This document shows, piece by piece, positions 4,109 to 12,167 of a stretch of 12,167 bases of DNA. The translations under genes were made by a program, and so were the position numbers. The stretch's first letter is position 1. Each line of letters starts with the position of its first letter. The DNA comes from Chloroflexota bacterium (GTDB lineage: Bacteria > Chloroflexota > Anaerolineae > UBA7937 > JACPPX01), in assembly GCA_016196905.1 (NCBI GenBank), contig JACPWV010000039.1, forward strand, positions 1 to 12,167, in the 5' to 3' direction. The notes below the pieces were generated by a model. The model did no database searches. It had not been told where the DNA came from and saw nothing but the letters and a program-made list of their open reading frames with translations.

Positions 4109-5287
4109 ATGGCGAACCCAAAGAGACGCCCACAGGTCCTCAACATCCTGGCGGAGATTGGGGAGAGCACGAATGCCAGCCTGGAGCTCGACGAGGTCCT
4201 TCCAGCTATCCTGCGGGCGGTACGCAGATTAATCCCCTACGCCGCCGCGGAGATCACCCTGTGGGAGGATGAGGCGCGCGTCTTGGTGGTCCGGGCTCAA
4301 GCCGGGGATCCACGCTACACCGCTCATTCCGGTGGCTTCTATCGACTGGGAGAGGGTTACACCGGTTGGATCGCACGCAACAAGGAGCCGCTGCTCATCG
4401 CCGATGCCTCCAGGCGCAAGGATATCCAGCCCAAGTCTGTCGTTCCCCGGGCGAAACCCATCGCCTCCTTCATCGGAGTGCCCCTCCTGGCGGGAGAGGA
4501 CTTGGTGGGGACTCTGGAGCTGGCCAGCAACACCCCCAAGACCTACACCCGGGAGCATGTGCAGCTGCTGGAGGTGATCGGCCACCAGGCCACCGCGGCT
4601 ATCGAGAACGCGCGGCTCTACCGCCGCCTGCGCGATGAGCGCGAACGGATCCTGCGAGCTCAGGAGGAAGTGCGCCGCGAGTTGGCTCGCAACCTGCACG
4701 ACGGTACGGTGCAGCAGTTGGCCTCCATCGCCATGGGGCTGGATCATGTGCGCCAACTCTTGCGCGTCAATCCGGATGGGGTGAGCCAGGAGCTGGAATC
4801 CCTCCAGGCCCTGGCCTTCCGTGCCTCCCAGCAGGCCCGTCTGCTCCTGTTTGAGCTGCGTCCGGTGATTTTGGAAAGCCAGGGTCTCCTGCCCGCCCTG
4901 GAGATGTATCTTCAGCAGCTCTCCCAGAACCACAGCCCCAAGTTCCACTTGCGCACGCCGCCAGCCCTGCCCCGCTTGGGGGCGCGCGTGGAGGCGGCCG
5001 TCTTCGACATTATTCAGGAAGCGGTGACCAACGCCCGTAAGCACGCTCAGGCCAAGAACATCCGCCTGCGGGTGAGCGAGGAGAAGGACGAGCTGCGCAT
5101 CTCCATTGACGACGATGGAAAGGGATTCGACGTGGCCGCGGTCCGCGGCGGCTATGAACGGCGCAGCAGCTTCGGCTTGCTCAATATGCAGGAGCGGACC
5201 GAGTTGATCGATGGCCACTTCTCGGTGGCCTCGGAGGTCGGGAAGGGGACGCGGGTGATCCTGCGGGTGCCCCTCCGACGCGTTTGA
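4109..5287 (+). CDS. GAF-domain sensor histidine kinase (NarL/DesK-type, HisKA_3)
   Basis: A soluble two-component sensor kinase of 392 residues. A GAF domain covers about residues 20-168 and probably binds a small ligand or senses redox state; its ligand is unknown. A short coiled linker leads to the HisKA_3 dimerisation helix with the phospho-acceptor His197 in E-L-A-R-N-L-H-D-G-T-V-Q-Q-L. The HATPase_c domain follows: N box around Asn308 (EAVTNARKHA), G1 box D-D-D-G-K-G-F at 334-340, and G2 box F-G-L-L-N-M near 355 with G-K-G at 378-380. There are no transmembrane segments, so it acts in the cytoplasm. No response-regulator gene is adjacent; the partner should be a LuxR/NarL-type regulator elsewhere. 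The ATG start is chosen because the promoter -10 box lies directly upstream; a weak GGATGG serves as ribosome site. The TPR gene follows with almost no gap. Confidence 0.93.
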   Translation: MANPKRRPQVLNILAEIGESTNASLELDEVLPAILRAVRRLIPYAAAEITLWEDEARVLVVRAQAGDPRYTAHSGGFYRLGEGYTGWIARNKEPLLIADASRRKDIQPKSVVPRAKPIASFIGVPLLAGEDLVGTLELASNTPKTYTREHVQLLEVIGHQATAAIENARLYRRLRDERERILRAQEEVRRELARNLHDGTVQQLASIAMGLDHVRQLLRVNPDGVSQELESLQALAFRASQQARLLLFELRPVILESQGLLPALEMYLQQLSQNHSPKFHLRTPPALPRLGARVEAAVFDIIQEAVTNARKHAQAKNIRLRVSEEKDELRISIDDDGKGFDVAAVRGGYERRSSFGLLNMQERTELIDGHFSVASEVGKGTRVILRVPLRRV

Positions 5288-6466: not shown

Positions 6467-8554
6467 TTATTCTTCCTCCTCCTCAACGCCCGCCTCCTGC
6501 TTGGCCTTTTTGATGATCTGTTCGGACAGGTGAGGGGGGACTTCTTCGTAGTGGGAGAACTCCATGGTGAAGGTGCCGCGGCCTTGAGTGATGGAACGCA
6601 GGTCGGTGGCGTAGCGCTGCATCTCGGCCAGCGGCACTTGGGCGGTGATGATGCTTTTGCCGCCCGTTTGTTCCATCCCCATCACCCGCGCGCGTTTGGC
6701 GTTGAGATCCCCCAGGACATCCCCCATGACGTTCTCGGGAACCGTGATGGTGACGTTCATGATCGGTTCCAAGAGCACCGGGCTGGCCTGCTCCATGGCC
6801 TTCTTGAAGCCCAGCGAGGCGGCGATCTTGAAAGCCATCTCGGAAGAGTCCACCGGGTGGTAGGAGCCATCGTGGAGGGCGGCGCGAAAATCGATGGTGG
6901 GATAGCCAGCCAAGATCCCCTTTTGAATGGCCTCGCGCAGGCCCTTTTCCACGGCGGGGATGTAGTTTTTGGGCACCGCCCCTCCGAAGATCTCGTCCTC
7001 GAACTCGAAGCCGCTGCCGCGCGGGAGCGGTTCCAAGCGCAGGAAGACATCCCCAAATTGTCCCCGGCCGCCGGTCTGCTTTTTGTAGCGGCCTTGGGCG
7101 CTGGCGGTCTTGCGGATGGTTTCCTTGTAGGGGATCCTGGGGGGCTGAGTAACGATCTCCACCCCGAATTTTTGGTGCAACCGCCGCGCCGCGATATCGA
7201 TGTGCGACTCGCCCATCCCCCTCAGAATGGTCTCGCCCGTATCGGGTTCGCGCTGCACTTGCAGGGTGGGGTCCTCCTCCACCAGCCGGGCCAGGGCGCT
7301 CCCCATCTTGTCTAGGTCGGCTTTGGTCTTGGGGGTGATGGCCGCGCTGAAGACGGGGCTGGGGAAAGCGATAGACGGGAGCACCAGGGGGTGGGCCTTA
7401 TCGCAGAGGGTGTCCCCGGTGGAGGTGGCTTGGAGCTTGGCCACCACCCCGATATCCCCAGCGGAGATCCCTTGGGTGGGGAGCTGCTCCTTACCGCGCA
7501 GGAGGAAAAGCTGGCCCATGCGCTCCTCCTCGTTGGTGCGGACGTTGAGAACGCGCGAATCGGAACGCAGCTGGCCGGCATAAACCCGGAAGTAGCTCAG
7601 CTTTCCAACGTAAGGATCGGCGAAGGTCTTGAAGACCAAGGCAGCCAGCGGGGCATCCGGGCCGGCGGGCAAGGCCTCCTCTTGTCCGGATCGCAGATTG
7701 TAGGCCTTCACTTCGCGATAGTTGGGCGGGGGGACGAGCTCGAGAATGGCGTCCAGGAGTTGGCGGGTGCCGACAGCCTGATAGGCGGACCCGCATAGGA
7801 TGGGGACGATCTTACCCTGGCGAATACCCGCTCGCAAGCCGCGGCTGATCTCCTCCGGGCTGAGATCGGTCCCTTCCAAATATTTCATGATCAACTCATC
7901 ATCGGCCTCCGCAGCGGCCTCCATGATCGCCTGGCGATAAGCCTCCACTTGCTCCTGGGCCTGGCTGGGAATAGACTCCTCCCCGCCCTCGGGGCCCACC
8001 TGGGCCATCTTGCGGGACAGATCGATCAGGCCGCGGAAGGGGGCCGAGTCGCCCAAGGGGAGCTGCAAGGGGACGAAGCGTGCGGGGAATGCCTGGCGCA
8101 GTTGATCGACGACGCGTGTGAAGCTGGCGTTTTCCCGCTCGAGCTTGTTGACAAAGACCAAACGGGGAAGTTGATACGTATCGGCATAGCTCCATACCTG
8201 CTCGGTGCCCACCTCCACCCCGCCCACCGCATCCACGATGATCAGCGCCGCGTCGGCCACGCGGGTGGATCCCAACATCTCGCCGGCGAAATCGGCGTAG
8301 CCGGGCGTGTCCAGCAGGTTGATCTTGTGATCGCGCCACTCGATGGGCAGCAAAGAGGTGTTCACCGAGATGCGCCGACGGATCTCCTCGGGGTCGTAGT
8401 CGGAGACGGTGTTCCCCTCCTCCACCCGGCCCAGGCGAGTAATCGCCCCGCTATGGAAGAGCAGAGCCTCGGCCAGGCTGGTCTTTCCAGCGCCACCGTG
8501 GGCAAGAAGGACCACGTTGCGCAGACGATCGCTGGGGTAATCTTTCACTCGCAT
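6467..8554 (-). CDS. fusA2: Elongation factor G-like GTPase (EF-G2 type)
   Basis: A translational GTPase of 695 residues with the full EF-G layout: G domain, domain II, domain III, domain IV (containing G-G-R-G-Q-F-G-D-V) and domain V. The P-loop reads A-H-G-G-A-G-K-T (18-25) and the G3 box D-T-P-G-Y (82-86). Canonical EF-G has G-H-I-D-A-G-K-T and D-T-P-G-H, so this belongs to the EF-G2 paralogue group. Its role is less certain than the main translocase; some members lack full translocation or ribosome-recycling activity. The G4 box reads N-K-L-E (136-139) instead of N-K-x-D, which is unusual. The tail is acidic (five Glu). An in-frame TTG at 8575 coincides with the predicted transcription start, so the ATG at 8554 is chosen; the family also usually starts just before the K-D-Y motif. 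The gene stands alone, outside a str operon. Confidence 0.93.
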   Translation of the reverse strand: MRVKDYPSDRLRNVVLLAHGGAGKTSLAEALLFHSGAITRLGRVEEGNTVSDYDPEEIRRRISVNTSLLPIEWRDHKINLLDTPGYADFAGEMLGSTRVADAALIIVDAVGGVEVGTEQVWSYADTYQLPRLVFVNKLERENASFTRVVDQLRQAFPARFVPLQLPLGDSAPFRGLIDLSRKMAQVGPEGGEESIPSQAQEQVEAYRQAIMEAAAEADDELIMKYLEGTDLSPEEISRGLRAGIRQGKIVPILCGSAYQAVGTRQLLDAILELVPPPNYREVKAYNLRSGQEEALPAGPDAPLAALVFKTFADPYVGKLSYFRVYAGQLRSDSRVLNVRTNEEERMGQLFLLRGKEQLPTQGISAGDIGVVAKLQATSTGDTLCDKAHPLVLPSIAFPSPVFSAAITPKTKADLDKMGSALARLVEEDPTLQVQREPDTGETILRGMGESHIDIAARRLHQKFGVEIVTQPPRIPYKETIRKTASAQGRYKKQTGGRGQFGDVFLRLEPLPRGSGFEFEDEIFGGAVPKNYIPAVEKGLREAIQKGILAGYPTIDFRAALHDGSYHPVDSSEMAFKIAASLGFKKAMEQASPVLLEPIMNVTITVPENVMGDVLGDLNAKRARVMGMEQTGGKSIITAQVPLAEMQRYATDLRSITQGRGTFTMEFSHYEEVPPHLSEQIIKKAKQEAGVEEEEE

Positions 8555-8581
8555 TCCCTTTCTAGGGGAGGCCAAGGAGAC

Positions 8582-8610
8582 ATTCTAAACGAAACCAACG
8601 ACCCTGTCAA
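8582..8610 (-). promoter_or_regulatory. Sigma70-type promoter of the EF-G-like gene
   Basis: On the minus strand, a perfect TTGACA (8610-8605) and TAGAAT (8587-8582) are spaced by exactly 17 bp. Transcription would start near 8575, giving a leader of about 20 nt before the ATG at 8554. Confidence 0.75.
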
Positions 8611-8717
8611 AAATGGGCTGCCTTTCGTTCGGGCCAGCACCGCCCGCTGAAAAAGCCTCTAACCGACGTATGCTTATCGAAGATGAGCTCTAAGATCGGG
8701 AGGCTGAGCTGAGATCG

Positions 8718-10565: not shown

Positions 10566-11528
10566 ATGGCCATGGATGCCTATTCGCAGACAGTGATGCG
10601 AGCGGTGGAGAAGATCGCCCCCGCCGTGGTCAGCGTGAGCGTCACGCGCGGCGGAGGGCGGATGACCTTGTGGGGGGTCGTCCCTTTCCAGCAGGAGGGC
10701 GCGGCCTCAGGTGTGATCATCGCCCCGGACGGCCACATCCTAACCAACAGCCATGTGGTGCATGGCTTCTCGGAGCTGGAAGTGTTCCTGTCGGACGGCC
10801 GTGTCCTCCCGGCCAGGCTGGTGGGAGACGATCCCGATACGGATCTGGCGGTGATCGATGTGGTGGGCGAGGATGTGCCGGTGGCGGAACTGGGGGATTC
10901 GGAGGCCTTAAAGCCCGGACAACTGGTGATCGCCATCGGGAACCCCTTGGGCTCCTTTCGGGCCTCGGTCACCGCGGGGGTGATCAGCGCGGTGGGGCGA
11001 TCCCTGCCCTCGCGAACGGGTCGGACCATCGAAAACATCATCCAAACCGATGCCGCCTTGAATCCGGGGAACTCGGGCGGCCCTCTGGTGGACTCCCAAG
11101 GAAAAGTGGTGGGGATCAATACCGCCATCATCCTGGGGGCTCAGGGCATCGCCTTCGCCATCCCCATCAACACCGCCAAGTGGGTGGCGGGGCTGCTCAT
11201 CAAGGAAGGGAGAGTTCGGCGCGCCTACTTGGGTCTGGCGGTGGAGCTGACTGGGCTCCACCCGCGCTTCGTCAGACACCATAGGCTCTCCTCCGATCTG
11301 GGGGTGATGGTGCGCGGCGTGGGCCAGGGCACCGGCGCTGCCCAGGCCGGCCTCCAGCCGGGGGACATCATCGCTGCCCTAGATGGCCAGACCGTGCGCA
11401 GTGTCGATGATCTGCACCGCGCCCTCTCCAAGATCCAGGTGGGCCAGGTGGTGGGGCTAACCGTCTTGCGCGATGTTGATCGCCTCGAGCTGAGGGCGCG
11501 CACGGGGGAGAGCCCACCCTTCGAGTAG
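10566..11528 (+). CDS. S1C-family trypsin-like serine protease with PDZ domain (HtrA/DegP-like)
   Basis: A 320-residue protease with the full catalytic triad: His63 (T-N-S-H-V-V), Asp93 (T-D-L-A-V) and Ser170 in L-N-P-G-N-S-G-G-P-L. The protease domain covers about residues 12-215. A PDZ domain covers about 222-312 and includes the A-G-L-Q-P-G-D-I-I-A loop. HtrA proteins degrade misfolded envelope proteins and usually carry a signal peptide or an N-terminal membrane anchor. This one starts M-A-M-D-A-Y-S-Q-T-V-M-R-A-V-E and has neither, so it is probably cytoplasmic, unless the true start lies upstream, where no suitable frame is seen. It also has one PDZ domain rather than two. The ATG at 10566 is supported by a purine-rich ribosome site. 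It is probably monocistronic; the DUF3179 gene follows after 158 bp. Confidence 0.93.
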   Translation: MAMDAYSQTVMRAVEKIAPAVVSVSVTRGGGRMTLWGVVPFQQEGAASGVIIAPDGHILTNSHVVHGFSELEVFLSDGRVLPARLVGDDPDTDLAVIDVVGEDVPVAELGDSEALKPGQLVIAIGNPLGSFRASVTAGVISAVGRSLPSRTGRTIENIIQTDAALNPGNSGGPLVDSQGKVVGINTAIILGAQGIAFAIPINTAKWVAGLLIKEGRVRRAYLGLAVELTGLHPRFVRHHRLSSDLGVMVRGVGQGTGAAQAGLQPGDIIAALDGQTVRSVDDLHRALSKIQVGQVVGLTVLRDVDRLELRARTGESPPFE

Positions 11529-11686: not shown

Positions 11687-12167
11687 ATGCGCCAGCATGG
11701 GCTGTGGCTCAGTGCGGTCTGGGTTATACTTCTGGGAGGGTGCAGCTTGATCGCGAGTCGTGATGTGGCCCTACCGGCCCCGTTGGGCGGGGCCACTCAG
11801 CCGGCGGAGGAGCGCCAGGTCCGTATCATCACCGTCCTGCCTCGCGACGCCATCCCGGCCATCCTCGACCCGGAGTTCCTCACCCCCCAGCAGGCTGCGG
11901 GCCAGATGAGATCCACCGAGCGGGTGATGGGGGTGTTCCTCAACGGGGAGGCCAGGGCTTATCCCATCACCATGCTCAGCGTTCACGAGATCGTGAACGA
12001 CACTGTGGGGGGCGTCCCCATCGCCGTCACCTATTGACCCCTGTGCTACACGGGCATCGTGTATGCCCGGCGGATCGGAGGTGAGGAGTATACCTTCGGG
12101 GTTTCGGGCAAGTTGATCATGAACACGTTGGTGATGTACGATCGCCAGACGGGGAGCCTGTGGGGCC
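11687..12167 (+). CDS. DUF3179 lipoprotein, probable selenoprotein with in-frame UGA (3'-partial)
   Basis: A lipoprotein of the DUF3179 family, truncated by the window end. A leader of 18 residues ends in the lipobox L-G-G-C (Cys19), so the mature protein is exported and lipid-anchored. The domain starts near residue 50 (I-P-A-I-L-D-P-E-F) and runs through H-E-I-V-N-D-T-V-G-G-V-P-I-A-V-T-Y. Codon 117 is TGA (12035-12037). Translation beyond it continues the family without a frame change: P-L-C, then F-G-V-S-G-K-L-I-M-N, M-Y-D-R-Q-T-G-S-L-W to the edge. DUF3179 members normally have Cys at this place (T-Y-C-P-L-C), so selenocysteine in a U-P-L-C motif is the best reading, supported by a hairpin just downstream. 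An ordinary stop or pseudogene is the alternative. The function is unknown; a redox role is inferred from the motif. The start ATG has a weak AGGGG upstream. Confidence 0.85.
12035..12069 (+). promoter_or_regulatory. Candidate bacterial SECIS element with its UGA codon
   Basis: The UGA (12035-12037) is followed after 13 nt by a perfect 7-bp stem CGGGCAT/ATGCCCG (12051-12057 with 12063-12069) and a 5-nt loop CGTGT. The loop holds a G at its second position followed by U, and that G lies 22 nt after the last base of the UGA. Bacterial SECIS elements recognised by SelB have a short apical loop with an early G, often GU, roughly 16-37 nt after the UGA, so the geometry fits. Confidence 0.75.

Follow-up and report, generated by a model that had tools for sequence, protein, structure and literature searches.

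The window analysed here, a stretch of 12,167 bases, is one whole contig (G000:C204) of a Chloroflexota bacterium whose genome bin (G000) amounts to 1.41 Mb in 227 contigs and is 64.9% complete. At its right end lies a gene of the DUF3179 family on the plus strand, which starts with the ATG at 11687 and runs off the contig. Translation with table 11 stops at a TGA and yields 116 amino acids, the truncation that an earlier note on this DNA had expected of standard gene callers. When the TGA is read as selenocysteine (Sec, U), the N-terminal part of the gene extends to 160 codons (11687–12166), with this single TGA and no other stop up to the contig end. The TGA is codon 117 (12035–12037) and is followed by CCC CTG TGC (P-L-C), the first of 43 in-frame codons in all before the contig ends; the TGC (12044–12046) encodes Cys120, the partner residue in a U-P-L-C pair. 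A hairpin of the Sec insertion sequence (SECIS) type follows at 12051–12069. Near the N-terminus, an LGGC sequence (residues 16–19, 11732–11743) was seen by eye; it is a candidate lipobox, with Cys19 (11741–11743) as the probable lipid anchor. We conclude with high confidence that the gene at 11687 encodes a Sec-containing DUF3179 protein, probably a lipoprotein, and we infer that Sec is inserted at codon 117.

The family assignment is clear on both sides of the TGA. Against the 160-residue partial read-through product, the Pfam profile of DUF3179 (PF11376) scores 157.8 bits (E = 5.1e-46; curated cut-off 27) in a single match that covers residues 53–159 and thus both flanks of codon 117. In the C-P-L-C motif typical of the family, it is the first Cys whose place is taken by the TGA, as the earlier note had read it. 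A database protein of 116 amino acids (P0002, a protein record from a contig of 1523 bases) is 91% identical and ends at the same residue. The best match in the genome collection (L047, 'Chloroflexi bacterium isolate TC_152') is 52% identical.

Alignment of the read-through core to the loci of relatives gave 149 segments, in which the same gene in overlapping loci is counted more than once. The codon in the TGA column is TGC in 57, TGT in 49, TGA in 41 and CAA in two, both of the last being second-repeat alignments; in the remaining 147 of the 149 segments the partner residue, three codons further along, is encoded by TGC or TGT. The column is therefore a Cys column in homologues, as had been predicted. 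A second script sought UxxC in the window, in L047 and in 31 stretches retrieved because their rows were marked TGA. It located 34 sites, one in the window and 33 elsewhere, which together represent 33 distinct DNA contexts; two of these sites (L162 and L169) were too distant for the column-alignment script. In a class-wide search, DUF3179 was matched in 100 of 298 genomes, and among the matches listed one in-frame TGA occurs in 33 (the present gene included), TAA in one and TAG in none. The TGA forms fall into UPLC, UPIC, UAAC/UEAC and UAPC/UAVC subgroups, and some genomes (e.g. G168, G243, G294 and G089) carry several TGA copies next to Cys copies. The C(U)xxC motif is kept in all 70 aligned first-repeat rows, its second Cys likewise in 70 of 70. 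When 25 Sec and 45 Cys first repeats are placed on a tree, with the UAPC/UAVC group left out, the Sec/Cys label requires one change, although support for the dividing branch is weak (61/45; present in 58% of bootstrap trees). As in other bacterial selenoprotein genes, homology thus continues in frame beyond the UGA and the aligned residue is Cys in homologues; as in DUF3179 selenoproteins of the UxxC/T type, the UGA stands in frame at the first Cys of CxxC.

The second line of evidence is the hairpin after the TGA. In the window it folds as CGGGCAU-CGUGU-AUGCCCG, the stem pairing 12051–12057 with 12063–12069 around the loop CGUGU at 12058–12062. The criteria for bacterial SECIS (bSECIS) elements, as stated in a figure legend of PMC13188914, are a loop of 3–9 nt, an upper stem of 4–16 bp, a G within the first two loop positions, a distance of 16–37 nt from the UGA and a minimum free energy (MFE) of −7.5 or lower. 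With a loop of 5 nt, a stem of 7 bp, a loop beginning C-G-U (G at position 2), a distance of 20 nt and −9.9 kcal/mol, the window hairpin lies within every one of these limits. The helix was first spotted in the window and was then examined across relatives, in an alignment of 13 TGA contexts from among the 33 distinct ones (UPLC and UAAC/UEAC groups, plus strand of their loci). Here the run GGCATCGTGTATG, 13 consecutive bases, is invariant in 13 of 13 forms, third codon positions included. Pairing is found in 94.5% of the stem cells and drops to 19.8–53.8% once the partner is slid by 1–3 columns; none of 500 shuffles reached the observed paired cells and covariation score. In UPIC forms the fold has an enlarged loop or contains a mismatch, and the hairpin of UAPC/UAVC forms lies in a different register (e.g. 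GGCGTC-AGTCT-GACGCC). Relative to random synonymous recodings of the same protein, the median z is −2.04 for the 33 TGA forms and −0.04 for 85 Cys forms, and strict uninterrupted hairpins of −7.5 or better occur in 18/33 TGA forms, 5/85 Cys forms and 288/3300 recodings. The hairpin is thus stronger than synonymous recoding predicts across TGA relatives, but not across Cys relatives. A bSECIS-type hairpin, which the earlier note had proposed to seek in the bases after the TGA, is accordingly present and conserved among TGA forms.

The third line of evidence is the selenium machinery. The same genome holds both SelA, in full length (582.8 bits), and SelD (367.5 bits). Its SelD gene (G000:C6:448-1377, L046) has an in-frame TGA within SCAGUASKM, the active-site position of Sec-type SelD; SelD is therefore a probable second selenoprotein of this genome, and its TGA region folds at −8.8 kcal/mol. 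SelD exceeded the cut-off in 24 of 28 genomes tested, and every such row that reaches profile position 1 or 2 has one TGA. SelA did so in 10 of 12 genomes tested, the exceptions being G001 and G053, of which G053 shows an end piece. TGA forms occur in 22 other genomes: tRNA-Sec with anticodon TCA is present in 20 of them (exceptions G145 and G189) and SelB exceeds the cut-off in 19 (exceptions G189, G250 and G294); short pieces resembling SelB occur in G189 and G250, and G294 possesses both tRNA-Sec and SelA. On two contigs a TGA-form DUF3179 gene and tRNA-Sec occur together, at 4210–5079 and 6617–6711 of G294:C258 (L208) and at 7808–8713 and 13851–13945 of G056:C1 (L205).

Several observations weigh against Sec insertion. 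In the 64.9%-complete bin no SelB exceeded the cut-off, the best match being read as IF-2-like, and tRNA-Sec was not found, the eight loci inspected being Ser, Leu, Trp, Thr and Gly tRNAs. The earlier note had suggested a search of this genome for the selenium genes: SelA and a TGA-bearing SelD were found, but SelB and tRNA-Sec were not. The sole same-family genome among 60 relatives (G001, an 80%-complete bin) is without SelA, SelB, SelD and tRNA-Sec over cut-off. The window hairpin is not extreme when taken alone, since it was matched by 12 of 200 shuffles, by 2 of 300 recodings in MFE and by 146 of 3000 under the strict rule, a rule that 15 of the 33 TGA forms fail. Two stem pairs of the 13-form alignment vary on both sides, but this count is no excess, being reached in 254 of 500 shuffles. 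Finally, the contrast in recoding z between TGA and Cys forms (Mann–Whitney p = 4.7e-10) overstates independence, because the TGA forms are mutually related and the Cys set is rich in close archaeal sequences. As for the missing genes, we infer that SelB and tRNA-Sec lie in the roughly one third of the genome that the bin lacks. Either Sec was lost in the lineage of G001 or its bin is incomplete at these genes, so that loss of Sec within the family is possible; the DUF3179 gene of G001 is seen as the second half alone, at a contig end.

DUF3179 appears to be a tandem duplication (L155, residues 96–211 and 255–365), and the CxxC/UxxC pair is confined to the first half in the TGA forms seen. The predicted structure is a duplicated beta-sandwich, and the nearest solved folds to each half are Rieske ferredoxins and domains (e.g. 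2qpz). There are differences between DUF3179 and Rieske proteins: the CxH...CxxH ligands are absent (70/70 rows have C(U)xxC), there are two tandem copies and there is no profile similarity. By eye, the spacing of HEIVND...CPLC resembles that of CPH...CPWH, and a Rieske cluster site was considered; it was dropped, because the hhalign probability is about 1% and CPLC lies away from the ligand loops in the structural ranges, and the fold resemblance alone was kept. In sequence searches, a Pfam scan of 62 members with E values up to 10 matched no other family in more than three of them, solved structures searched by sequence gave nothing convincing (best E 0.56 and 0.68), and three proteins searched against NCBIfam had no match. 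A literature search found no paper that joins Rieske with DUF3179.

In the mechanism that we propose, SelB with Sec-tRNA-Sec would bind the hairpin beginning 14 nt past the UGA and decode codon 117 as Sec, so that translation proceeds beyond residue 116. The product may then be exported and anchored via Cys19, a step of much lower certainty, and would display the U-P-L-C pair on the first of its two repeated beta-sandwich halves. Outside the cytoplasm, Sec117 would most likely provide the nucleophilic selenol of a redox reaction, with Cys120 supplying the resolving thiol; we regard this putative selenol/thiol role as somewhat better than an even prospect. The alternative for function, which we consider unlikely, is that UxxC/CxxC serves to hold a metal or a cluster on the Rieske-like scaffold and is not a free selenol/thiol pair. 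A wider proposal is in our view less likely than not: DUF3179 could be an undescribed type of extracytoplasmic selenol/thiol oxidoreductase, a duplicated Rieske-like beta-sandwich without cluster ligands and with UxxC elsewhere on the fold, whose Sec form in this class would be an old set of subfamilies, in several copies in some genomes, rather than a sporadic replacement of Cys.

For codon 117 itself, other explanations have to be weighed. The TGA could be a sequencing error, with one base misread, or mark a pseudogene in which an otherwise ordinary Cys protein has acquired a nonsense mutation; the bin is fragmented and the gene runs to the edge of its contig, with its 3' part beyond, which leaves room for this. 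However, 33 further sites have TGA in the same column, the frame is intact on either side, the 91%-identical P0002 stops at the identical residue, the hairpin is kept at synonymous positions, and both SelA and a SelD of Sec type are encoded in the genome; we therefore hold an error or pseudogene to be very improbable. The TGA might instead be a real stop, with a functional piece of 116 residues or with read-through by a near-cognate tRNA giving a little full-length protein. P0002 is indeed recorded as a 116-residue protein, yet the output of a gene caller would be identical in either case, and the maintenance of the family sequence over 43 codons past the TGA together with the second Cys in all 70 rows makes this reading equally hard to sustain. 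A genome-wide code change, in which TGA would specify Trp or some other residue, had no point found in its favour and is rejected, since TGA terminates five of the 12 other window open reading frames (ORFs) taken as genes, the single tRNA-Trp seen carries anticodon CCA and the residue aligned with the TGA is Cys. The proposal of a probable selenoprotein made in the earlier note is thus supported by the Cys column, the hairpin and the presence of SelA with a Sec-type SelD.

The surroundings of the gene were also surveyed. Just upstream in the window, on the same strand, is a gene for an HtrA-type (trypsin-like/PDZ) protease (10566–11528), and a gene for an EF-G-type translation factor lies on the minus strand (6467–8575). 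A second EF-G-like frame of 732 amino acids occurs at G000:C160, so the window gene may be a second, divergent copy. Around five TGA genes in four genomes, a scan of 10 of 61 computed ORFs found no gene type common to the loci; the neighbours were an MFS transporter, DUF4143/AAA, GreA, a DUF5666/cohesin protein, a sensor kinase, an acyltransferase, a member of an exo/endonuclease family, a sulfatase-like protein (below cut-off), an FAD oxidoreductase and one without a match.

The earlier note was uncertain whether selenoprotein forms of DUF3179 were already known, and this caution was well placed. Entries in PMC9312934 and PMC13188914 list DUF3179 (PF11376) among prokaryotic selenoprotein families, with the motif UxxC/T, and the former cites Zhang and Gladyshev 2007 (its reference 63), on the Olavius algarvensis symbiont, as the earliest report of DUF3179. 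The present gene shares with these published cases the Pfam family and Sec as the first residue of UxxC, but comes from another host lineage; the present description of the SECIS and of the subgroups in this class rests on sequence, and those review entries give neither alignment nor function. At NCBI, the name 'DUF3179 domain-containing (seleno)protein', which allows for Sec, is carried by four among the 120 matches listed (P0005, P0028, P0086 and P0100), all of the same family. One of them (P0005) comes from an Anaerolineales metagenome-assembled genome; its residue is printed as Cys, but the search output prints U as C, so Sec is possible. Novelty is therefore low, and the gene is a well-supported addition to an already listed selenoprotein family.

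Nevertheless, the finding adds a well-supported lineage to a family of selenoproteins otherwise found in print as table entries, and supplies a strongly conserved SECIS sequence for DUF3179. Since gene calling stops at the TGA in such genes, after 116 amino acids here and apparently likewise in P0002, DUF3179 selenoproteins are likely to be under-counted. As a predicted exported Sec protein with at least two TGA copies in several genomes, DUF3179 is a fair target for biochemistry, and its duplicated Rieske-like fold provides a testable lead.
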